NCBI GenBank assembly: GCA_009904015.1
Contig: WYEQ01000012.1
Span: 155,188 to 219,187, forward strand
Length of the DNA stretch: 64,000 nt
Source of the DNA: Desulfurococcales archaeon
GTDB lineage: Archaea > Thermoproteota > Thermoprotei_A > Sulfolobales > Fervidicoccaceae
Direction of reading: 5' to 3'
Below are positions 5,272 through 44,508 of this stretch, in pieces. The translations under genes were made by a program, and so were the position numbers. Under the pieces are notes generated by a model. That model had not been told where the DNA came from. It ran no database searches and worked only from the letters and a program-made list of their open reading frames with translations. The first letter of the stretch is position 1. Every line of letters starts with the position of its first letter.

Positions 5272-5352
5272 TGAACCCGGTGCCATTTTATCTTGAGACC
5301 AAATACTATTATTAGCTTCCTGCAATATGATATGACCTCGAATTCTAAAGAC

Positions 5353-5602
5353 GTTACAACCGAAAGCTCCACCTTTTAAGGCAGGGATGAAACATAAGAG
5401 CTTTTCTTGTTTTAATTGAGAACCGTGGTTGCCCCTAGGCACGTGGATGCGGGGAGCACAACCACTCATACAAGCAGTGATGGGGGGTCTCTGGTCACCC
5501 CGACTGCCCCTCAAACGACATATGTAGACCCGAATAGATAAGGAGAACAAATGAAGCCTCTAAAGGGCGAGGGGTCGTCCCTTTAGGGCGGAGAGGAGGT
5601 CA
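5353..5602 (+). mobile_element. Relic of an IS200/IS605 tnpB 3' end with omega-RNA-like hairpins (copy 1)
   Basis: This fills most of the 387-bp gap between genes at 5272-5658. It matches a second copy at 37062-37319 over its whole length. A reading frame near 5500-5545 gives PTAPQTTYVDPNR then a stop, which resembles the C-terminal tail of TnpB proteins (PTAPQMxDVNPxRW); no other part of a transposase remains. Two hairpins stand out: 5425-5435 pairing with 5451-5465, and a terminal one, CTAAAGGGCGA (5560-5570) pairing with TCG and CCCTTTAG (5575-5586), followed by GGAGAGGAGGTCA, the kind of end seen at IS605-family right ends. The whole is interpreted as a dead element end. Confidence 0.6.
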
Positions 5603-5658
5603 TTTCGAACACCTAAACTATAAATATCGTTGTGACATATTATAATGTGGGGTAAGAG

Positions 5659-37061: not shown

Positions 37062-37319
37062 GTTACAACTGAAAGCCTAGCTTTTCAGGGCGGGGATGAA
37101 ATATAAATGCTTTTCTTGTTTTAATAGAGAATCGTGGTTCCCCCAAACCAGCGTGGGGGTGCGGGGAGCACAACCACTCATGCCATGCAAGCTAAGATGG
37201 GGGGATATCTGGCCACACCGACTGCTCCTCAAATGGAAGATGTAAATCCGAGTAGATGAGAGGAACCAATGAAGCCCCTAAAGAGAGCCCACGTTCCCAC
37301 TGGGCGTGGAGAAAGTCAG
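37062..37319 (+). mobile_element. Relic of an IS200/IS605 tnpB 3' end with omega-RNA-like hairpins (copy 2)
   Basis: This occupies most of the 369-base gap 36974-37342. It aligns with copy 1 at 5353-5602 from GTTACAACTGAAAGC at its left end to GAAAGTCAG at its right end. A frame near 37225-37265 gives PTAPQMEDVNPSR and then a stop, like a TnpB tail. The main hairpin GTGGTT plus CCCC (37134-37144) pairs with GGGG and AACCAC (37163-37177); the terminal stem here is GCCCA/TGGGC, different in sequence from copy 1 but at the same place. No transposase gene is left. Confidence 0.6.
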
Positions 37320-42684: not shown

Positions 42685-44382
42685 ATGCCTTATAAAAAGC
42701 ATTCTCGCTTTGCAAAGCTGATGTACATAGGTAGCGCTTTGTCCATGGTTATTGGGATTTCTAGCTTAATCATAATATCCGTGGGTGTTTTCTCGCTGAG
42801 CATAGATACGGCTGGTTTATTGAGGGAGGGGTACTCAGTCTTCTATGTATTAATGCCGGTTGCGTTGATTTTAACTGGTACGGTCATCATCTTGATTAGC
42901 TTGCTGAGAGAAAGCCTGACCCTGCTAGCCTGTTCTGTTTCATTCTTTATGGCTGGGTTACTCATGGGGAAGATGGAAAAAATTTTTTCTCTATACTCGT
43001 CGGAAACGGTGGTTTTTGTTTTCCTGGGTATAGGTATTTTGCTTATAGGTGTAGCTTTTTATAAGTTATTGTATAGAGAGGCCGTTATTGGCGTTATCGA
43101 CGCGCTGGGTACAGTGGCTTTTCTATGGTTTCTTGTCCCGCTCATTCATTCATTACCACTTGTATTGCTTCTAAAAATACCGCTCTTGGATGCTTTTTTC
43201 GAATCGGTCATGGGGTTTACTGGGACAGGACTCACAGTGTTCACAGGGGCTATTGACCATAAAGGTATTTATATACCAAGCGTAGACGAGCTCTCAATGC
43301 CTATCCTATTGTGGCGGAGCATTATACAGTGGGTGGGCGGAATAGGCGTAGTAGTGATGAGCATGGCTATTATTGCTCAGCCCTCTATCGGCTTGGTTAT
43401 TCTAGCAGAGGTTGAGGGAAGGCTTGAGAAGCTCGAGCCAACCATCAAGAAAACAGCCATTCAGATGTTTAAGCTCTACATAGTCCTAACTATTATCTCA
43501 TTTGCTTTGTTTTATATAGCTGGTCTAGGGCCTTTCGAAGCGTTGTGTCAGGCATTTACTGGAATAAGCACGGCAGGCTTCTCGACACGTAGTGATAGCT
43601 TCGCGTCGATGAGCTTAGCTGTCAAAATTGCTGGCATAATTGTAATGATTCTCGGTGCATCGAACTTCCATGACATGTATATAGCTAGAAAGAGGCCCTG
43701 GGCCTTCCTCCGCTCGGTGGAACTAAGAGCAATGTTAATCACGATTACGTTGGCTTTGCTGTCCTCGTTCGGACTGTTCAGATTGCACGAGAAATACAGT
43801 CTTATAGACATATTATTCCAGATAACGAGTGCCTTAACAACAACGGGCTGGCAGAGCGTGAACTTATCTGCTTCGCCAATAGAGTTTAAGGTATTATTAA
43901 TTACTCTTATTTTTGTGGGTGGAAGCATTTTTTCAACGGCCGGTAGCGTCAAGATACTTAGGTACATCGCTTTGTTTAAGTATATACGCGAAGAAATCAA
44001 CAAGATGGGGAAGCCTAGAGGCTACCAGACAATGTACAGTGTTGGGAGGTACAGCTTCTCCCCTGATAGTGTTGGCAGAGCAGCTCTCGTTATGTTCCTC
44101 TACTTCTTTACGTATCAAGTGGGATTAGCAATTGCTTTTAAGATGGCAGGCCAAACCTACAGAATAGATAATCTTTTCTTCGAGGTCGCAAGCGCTCTCG
44201 GAAACATTGGGCTGAGCACGGGCGTCGCGGGCGCATCGTTACCGGCGGGACTAAAACTAGAATTTATCGTGTTATCAATCATGGGGAGACTGGAGATCTT
44301 TCCGTTAATAATCCTGTTTTACAAACTATTAACTTTCAGACCATCGAGAAAGAGAATTATTAAACAACCAGCTGTTTCCTAA
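42685..44382 (+). CDS. Potassium uptake transporter, TrkH/KtrB type
   Basis: 565 residues. All four pore loops are recognisable: GFTGTGLTVFTG near 176-187, FTGISTAGFSTRSD near 290-303, ITSALTTTGWQSVN near 380-393, and ASALGNIGLSTG near 503-514, so the K+ filter glycines are kept. About 130 N-terminal residues add four membrane segments before the core, more than in most KtrB. No TrkA or KtrA gene is adjacent. The ATG at 42685 has GGGAG about 5 bases before it. Confidence 0.9.
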   Translation: MPYKKHSRFAKLMYIGSALSMVIGISSLIIISVGVFSLSIDTAGLLREGYSVFYVLMPVALILTGTVIILISLLRESLTLLACSVSFFMAGLLMGKMEKIFSLYSSETVVFVFLGIGILLIGVAFYKLLYREAVIGVIDALGTVAFLWFLVPLIHSLPLVLLLKIPLLDAFFESVMGFTGTGLTVFTGAIDHKGIYIPSVDELSMPILLWRSIIQWVGGIGVVVMSMAIIAQPSIGLVILAEVEGRLEKLEPTIKKTAIQMFKLYIVLTIISFALFYIAGLGPFEALCQAFTGISTAGFSTRSDSFASMSLAVKIAGIIVMILGASNFHDMYIARKRPWAFLRSVELRAMLITITLALLSSFGLFRLHEKYSLIDILFQITSALTTTGWQSVNLSASPIEFKVLLITLIFVGGSIFSTAGSVKILRYIALFKYIREEINKMGKPRGYQTMYSVGRYSFSPDSVGRAALVMFLYFFTYQVGLAIAFKMAGQTYRIDNLFFEVASALGNIGLSTGVAGASLPAGLKLEFIVLSIMGRLEIFPLIILFYKLLTFRPSRKRIIKQPAVS

Positions 44383-44392
44383 GGTAGCTATT

Positions 44393-44497
44393 CACGTGGG
44401 GGAAGTTCCGCCCCTCTCCTAACTGCCCAGCAAATGGAAGATGTAAATCCTGATAGATGCGAGAAACCATTATTTCTTAAGGGCATAGAGGAGGTCA
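44393..44497 (+). mobile_element. Partial relic of an IS200/IS605 tnpB 3' end (copy 3)
   Basis: Only the 3' part of the family is left. Bases 44418-44465 give LTAQQMEDVNPDRCEKP in one frame, the least decayed TnpB-like tail of the three copies, ending with GAGGAGGTCA as in copy 1. The left hairpin of the other copies is absent and the terminal hairpin is degraded. The relic lies 10 bases after the K+ transporter stop and 11 before the phosphoesterase stop. Confidence 0.5.
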
Positions 44498-44508
44498 GAT
44501 TGCATAAG

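Follow-up and report, generated by a model that had tools for sequence, protein, structure and literature searches.

The genome of this Desulfurococcales archaeon carries at least 22 full-length copies of an element of about 250 bases that has lost its nuclease gene and retained the guide-RNA end of that gene. We estimate a probability of about 70% that this is a non-autonomous transposable element of the IS200/IS605 type that serves as a stand-alone omega-RNA gene, borrowing both TnpA and TnpB. It is a known kind of element to which an unusual and widely conserved part, a 5′ hairpin, has been added. The anatomy of the element is well supported. Judging from sequence, the family probably functions as RNA; for the copies in the window (the whole stretch of 64,000 nucleotides analysed here) this is uncertain.

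Anatomy of the element

The window lies within contig C11 of a 1.33-Mb genome (37 contigs, 92% complete). Positions 5300-5650, used as a query, matched 32 places in this genome, with E-values of copies down to 6e-77. Copies were fetched with their flanks and then aligned; the 22 that aligned end to end displayed identities of 71-85%, with more than 20% divergence in some. They share one layout: a TTAC target, a left-end (LE) hairpin, a TATA-like box, a GTGGTT hairpin, a TnpB-tail scaffold, a right-end (RE) hairpin and a terminal GTCA(G) (Table 1). Their flanks are unrelated to each other, and the right flanks all differ. The order of blocks that the sequence-only reading had claimed for copies 1 and 2 is present in both, far beyond chance, and no intact tnpB lies inside the window, as it had also stated. 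Copy 1 spans positions 5358-5603 (5354-5603 with its target) and copy 2 spans 37067-37319. Both are intergenic, and their covariance-model E-values were 5e-50 and 9e-42, respectively. The Rfam families detected at gathering threshold within the window were RNase P and one tRNA, with no others.

Table 1 Features of the element in window coordinates, with related loci elsewhere
Feature	Position	Strand	Remark
TTAC target, presumed TAM, left junction of copy 1	5354..5357	+	Seen in the majority of the 22 copies, altered at one base in the others
Left end (LE), AACCGAAAG and near-terminal hairpin CTCCACC..GGCAGGG	5358..5389	+	Same LE in tnpB-bearing elements of relatives
TATA-like box CATAAGAG	5393..5400	+	About 32 nt upstream of the hairpin; conserved position; intact-copy consensus YTTATAAR
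5′ hairpin GTGGTTGCCCC...GGGGAGCACAACCAC	5425..5465	+	51-copy alignment, several genera; lowest change rate of all segments
TnpB C-tail / omega-RNA scaffold core (GGGG..CCCC, CTGGTC, P2 CCCCTCA..TAAGGAG)	5482..5550	+	Homology to intact tnpB 3′ ends
Right end (RE), terminal hairpin and GGAGGTCA end	5558..5602	+	Alignment of copies
Predicted guide region, flanking DNA	5604..5623	+	By analogy with TnpB omega-RNAs; matches its own locus alone
Copy 2, TTAC target and full-length element	37063..37319	+	5′ hairpin at 37134-37177
Copy 3, decayed and truncated, scaffold/RE part only	44346..44498	+	Covariance model 37.6 bits, E 1.4e-9
43-bp elements in the host genome (G000), examples	C26:49397-49434; C23:139196-139233; C4:25778-25815	-; -; +	
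Sub-threshold HgcC (RF00062) matches	L070:2577-2710; L136:390-522; L150	-; +; 	

The 5′ hairpin measures 41-44 nt and pairs GTGGTTG-CCCC with GGGG-CAACCAC. Full-length short copies display it as GTGGTTG-CCCC-TAAGC..GGATGC-GGGG-NNNG-CAACCAC, between the TATA box and the scaffold. In a related genus (G094/G123/G177), 13/13 fresh copies have YTTATAA at a constant position. Copy 1 carries a T to C change in this box (CATAAG), and the final G of its GTCAG end is a T at 5603 (GTCAT). The distance from TATA box to hairpin is 49-54 nt in the fresh copies and, by deletion, about 30-32 nt in most host-genome copies, so that under the usual archaeal TATA-to-start spacing the latter would start transcription at the hairpin itself. 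A conserved TGATGATGAG / GGTGATGAG box was observed between TATA box and hairpin (L022:686-964, L026, L021; L130-L142), near the predicted transcript start; it is deleted from most host-genome copies. A C/D-box reading of a TGATGA motif in this interval yielded no consistent D box by eye.

The scaffold core is homologous to the 3′ ends of intact tnpB genes of relatives and to the relics L040 and L044 of the host genome. The TnpB-tail segment that had been described as a frame is indeed there; the frame is not kept, as single-base indels in the G run before TCTCTGG shift it between copies, which rules out coding.

Affiliation with known systems

The element displays near-terminal palindromes (the LE and RE hairpins), a fixed left target motif without target duplication, and no transposase, together with an autonomous element that has the same ends (L210, in G094). 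These are the features of PATEs and of non-autonomous IS200/IS605 elements. Its homology to the 3′ end and RE of intact tnpB genes (L070, L187) is that of a TnpB omega-RNA. A classical MITE was ruled out, since terminal inverted repeats and target duplication are both absent from the flank-inclusive alignment.

The PATEs of Haloquadratum are the closest described kind; among them are 52-bp terminal-only forms and a member that retains a remnant of the TnpB C-terminus (PMC3119063). PATEs, HqIRS71 among them, and the present element alike possess IS605-type near-terminal palindromes and lack terminal inverted repeats and a transposase; HqIRS71 also carries a partial TnpB C-terminal region with broken frames, as the present element does (PMC3119063). 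Unlike PATEs, our element has a dedicated 5′ hairpin and a promoter ahead of the omega-RNA scaffold, conserved across families, and the PATE host belongs to a different order of archaea. Terminal-only forms occur here as well, as 43-bp single-hairpin elements TTAC-AACTGAAAGCCTCGCCCTTTAGGGCGGGGAGGAGGTCAG in which the left end is fused to the right end. They were found at 12 places in the host genome (including L031, L036 and L038) and in 15 of 59 genomes searched, with 0 matches for a reversed control pattern. They resemble the terminal-only PATEs and may be mobile or products of in-place deletion.

Meanwhile, Staphylothermus marinus harbours 14 copies of a MITE of about 260 nt, which are like the present element in size, copy number, related host group and similarity to the region upstream of transposase ORFs; this likeness is drawn from the published description, which makes no omega-RNA link (PMC2678158). 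SisTnpB1, an archaeal TnpB, works with an omega-RNA that has two RE hairpins and a guide of 20 nt (PMC10640517). The omega-RNAs of SisTnpB1 and ISDra2 share with our element a scaffold that overlaps the tnpB 3′ end and RE hairpins, a guide taken from the flank, and a T-rich target motif 5′ of the LE. In contrast to both, the present element has no tnpB gene and has an extra 5′ hairpin, and its target is TTAC rather than the TTTAA/TTTAT of S. islandicus. TnpB is able to cut the omega-RNA out of its own mRNA (PMC10278001); therefore, a gene-less copy would need a promoter of its own.

Autonomous relatives and proposed mechanism

The autonomous element L210 (1786 bp) encodes a TnpA of 142 aa (Y1, PF01797, E 1e-40) and a TnpB of 443 aa within the same TTAC, LE, RE and GTCAG. 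The same LE occurs in TnpB-only elements of relatives, two of which enclose a TnpB of 386-423 aa between the same ends (L070, L187) and two of which have an interrupted or shortened tnpB (L084, L098). The full TnpB with the same 3′ end that the sequence-only reading proposed to look for is thus present in relatives. In an alignment of the L187 TnpB to a solved Cas12f that took in the RuvC and zinc regions, the RuvC D, E and D positions were all occupied, and catalytically intact TnpB genes with these ends occur among the relatives. A small Zn-ribbon-like ORF with two CPxC motifs was observed between left end and tnpB on the minus strand of L070 (~3925-3810) and L084 (~1680-1550).

Neither an intact cognate TnpB nor a Y1 TnpA was found in the 92%-complete host genome. 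Its relics of the cognate tnpB type are a C-terminal fragment (L040) and a copy with stops (L044), and the full TnpB at C26 is part of an IS607-type element with a resolvase. Because the partner proteins were not found, the host-genome copies are probably stranded, without power and slowly decaying.

Based on these features, we propose that the TTAC target, LE and RE hairpins and GTCAG ends would let the element be mobilised by the Y1 TnpA of an autonomous relative. A promoter inherited from the left end of the tnpB element would place the transcript start at the 5′ hairpin or about 20 nt upstream, and the RNA would extend across the TnpB omega-RNA scaffold into flanking DNA, taking its guide from the first 16-20 nt there. 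The empty donor site would next be cleaved by TnpB provided in trans, favouring retention of the copy. The sequences themselves show the anatomy, the copy number, the ends in common with autonomous TnpA/TnpB elements, the stronger conservation of hairpin and scaffold, and the occurrence in relatives; transcription, TnpB binding and homing are steps that we infer. Provided that they are transcribed, the elements would live as gene-less parasites on RNA-guided nucleases, keeping only the guide RNA and borrowing transposase and nuclease, and they would allow one to ask, in a natural setting, whether a solo omega-RNA can secure retention in trans. The conserved 5′ hairpin would then be a candidate stabilising module for thermostable TnpB RNAs.

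Distribution of the 5′ hairpin

Searching relatives for the block, as had been suggested along with the whole-genome search, revealed short elements with the 5′ hairpin in five GTDB families: G002 and G006 (f1, the family of the host), G125 (f2), G038/G062 (f3), G040 (f5) and G094/G123/G177 (f9). The version in G002 has diverged strongly and, on its own, adopts a different fold. The hairpin was absent from every tnpB-bearing element inspected (L040, L070, L084, L098, L187). Closely similar copies sit in different flanks in G094/G177, which suggests recent movement. Where the GTGGTT hairpin would lie, the short elements of G044 (L085, L088-L091) carry another one, GCAACCCTTCGTGAACGAGGGGTTG. In L079 and L080 (G040), the RE hairpin loop has an insert with AATGATGACCTGA, as it does in the TnpB element L098. 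The pattern GGATGCGGGGAGCGCRRCCAC gave one match across genome contigs, in Saccharopolyspora, which we take as chance; the hairpin pattern had no match in viral contigs, and a search of plasmid and phage DNA returned nothing beyond short scaffold matches in TnpB regions of Sulfolobus and Acidianus.

Differential conservation of the segments

Among host-genome copies, changes per site on terminal branches were lowest in the 5′ strand of the hairpin (0.021), followed by the GGGG-AGCG side (0.034). The 3′ strand of the hairpin changed at 0.071, largely in ways that keep the pairing; rates were 0.04-0.085 in the scaffold core, 0.075 in the spacer, 0.072 in the linker, 0.118 in the LE hairpin and 0.098 in the RE hairpin. 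Hairpin and scaffold changed less than the ends (Fisher P=2e-4). As terminal branches also span time before insertion, any selection may have operated in the mobile lineage and not in the copies now resident. The 13 fresh copies ranked the segments in the same way, with 0.014 in the hairpin 5′ strand, 0.009 in its loop and 0.019 in the core, and with 0.167 in the linker, 0.128 between TATA box and hairpin, 0.054 in the LE hairpin and 0.051 in the RE hairpin.

An orthologous insertion shared by two species (L134 in G177 and L140 in G094, same site, flanks 96-97% identical) again had the 5′ hairpin as its best-conserved segment, with 0/44 positions changed vs 13/96 in LE and promoter. The whole element differs more than its flanks at this site (22/281 vs 18/524), so exchange between copies may have occurred there. 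This roughly twofold excess involves variants present in other copies and may reflect conversion or re-insertion at the site. The claim of a guide-like unit rather than random debris is borne out by these data, as the same compact architecture of ends, promoter, dedicated 5′ hairpin and omega-RNA scaffold recurs in many genomes and the conservation of hairpin and scaffold exceeds that of the transposon ends.

Stems, covariation and guides

The sequence-only reading saw compensating change in the terminal stem, CTAAAGGG/CCCTTTAG in copy 1 and GCCCA/TGGGC in copy 2. This was ruled out, as the two stems join different alignment columns: where copy 1 has its stem, copy 2 has CTAAAGAG and TTCCCACTG, which remain unpaired, and the hairpin of copy 2 is a different one, built from columns next to them. 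Events counted along a tree of the 22 copies comprised 17 that broke and 4 that kept pairing in the RE stem (6.3 kept expected by chance), and 17 breaking vs 6 keeping in P2, neither better than chance. Random decay of stems, named beforehand as evidence against a kept RNA, thus describes P2 and RE in the host genome; the lower 5′ hairpin had 12 events kept vs 6 broken (P=0.08).

Column-based covariation among the host's own 22 copies was at the shuffled level. With the 13 copies from relatives added (35 copies), we counted 18 double-change cells vs 9.3 in shuffled alignments, a value reached in 1/500 shuffles; this measure is inflated by the relatedness of the copies and serves as supporting evidence only. 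The signal lies mainly at P2 (U-A against G-C). Within the hairpin, 51 copies give a weak covariation signal, since the sequence hardly varies. Fold stability of copies 1 and 2 is not exceptional (z about -1).

The 20 nt after each of the 22 copies, compared with the host genome, matched only their own locus; other matches were at chance level (best E 0.73). Trans targets, as second sites next to a TAM, were thus rejected, none exceeding chance in the host genome. Guides that match only their own flank fit a transposon re-targeting its own empty site, and not a repurposed regulator.

Alternative explanations

Ordinary debris is the rival with most in its favour, although we consider it unlikely. 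The element would have arisen from a tnpB element by internal deletion and spread under a past TnpA, and would now decay neutrally, its omega-RNA part and hairpin functionless. The missing partners in the host genome and the chance-level decay of P2 and RE are as this predicts; simple deletion derivatives exist (L092), and the 43-bp terminal-only versions are common. Against this, the ends have accumulated more changes than hairpin and scaffold, whether counted on terminal branches, in fresh copies or in the orthologous pair, and the same hairpin, which does not come from tnpB, is kept across five families. The stand-alone omega-RNA gene is our preferred reading. Continued use, as had been suggested, is plausible within the family and in relatives whose TnpB is intact; it is uncertain for copy 1, whose TATA-like box and end are mutated, in a host genome where no intact cognate TnpB or TnpA was found and the P2 and RE stems decay at random.

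The hairpin might instead act as single-stranded DNA, for example in handling by TnpA. IS605 transposition uses single-stranded DNA of one strand, in which a G-T wobble would be tolerated like G-U in RNA. Autonomous and TnpB-only elements with the same ends, however, do without the hairpin, as do the 43-bp versions (though these may arise by in-place deletion), and we regard a DNA role as very improbable. Slighter still is the chance that the host has taken over the guide RNA for regulation (TldR-like or antisense) and keeps it at fixed genomic places: copies 1 and 2 are intergenic and the more diverged copies may be old, but 0/22 guides have a second genomic target beyond chance, and all of them differ.

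Possible relation to HgcC RNAs

A broader and more tentative proposal is that these elements represent a lineage-wide class of separately transcribed omega-RNAs in hyperthermophilic archaea, with the 5′ hairpin (GGUUGCCCCUAAGC..GGAUGCGGG..GCAACC) as a module that protects the 5′ end or binds protein, so that an element without genes could hijack TnpB in trans and secure its own retention, and with HgcC in the same group. The HgcC model (RF00062) scored 48.0 bits on the scaffold of L070, 45.6 on L136 and 43.0 in the host genome, below the gathering score of 50. The match takes in the whole model over the scaffold and about 13 nt beyond the RE, leaving the 5′ hairpin outside. In T. kodakarensis, five HgcC RNAs are expressed, 3/5 from transposase genes and 2/5 not (PMC4247193). 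HgcC function was described as unresolved in 2017 (PMC5732400), and the link, if true, would give a function to this archaeal RNA family. The sequence likeness suggests that HgcC RNAs are related to TnpB omega-RNAs and may themselves be such RNAs, as a lead and not as family membership. Many weak HgcC matches in the wider phylum were terminal-only hairpins or chance, and HgcC was rejected there as a test of association with TnpB. Among 30 HgcC loci fetched there, a tnpB ended at the match in 2, and one more was a solo copy of our own element, matching in its tail.
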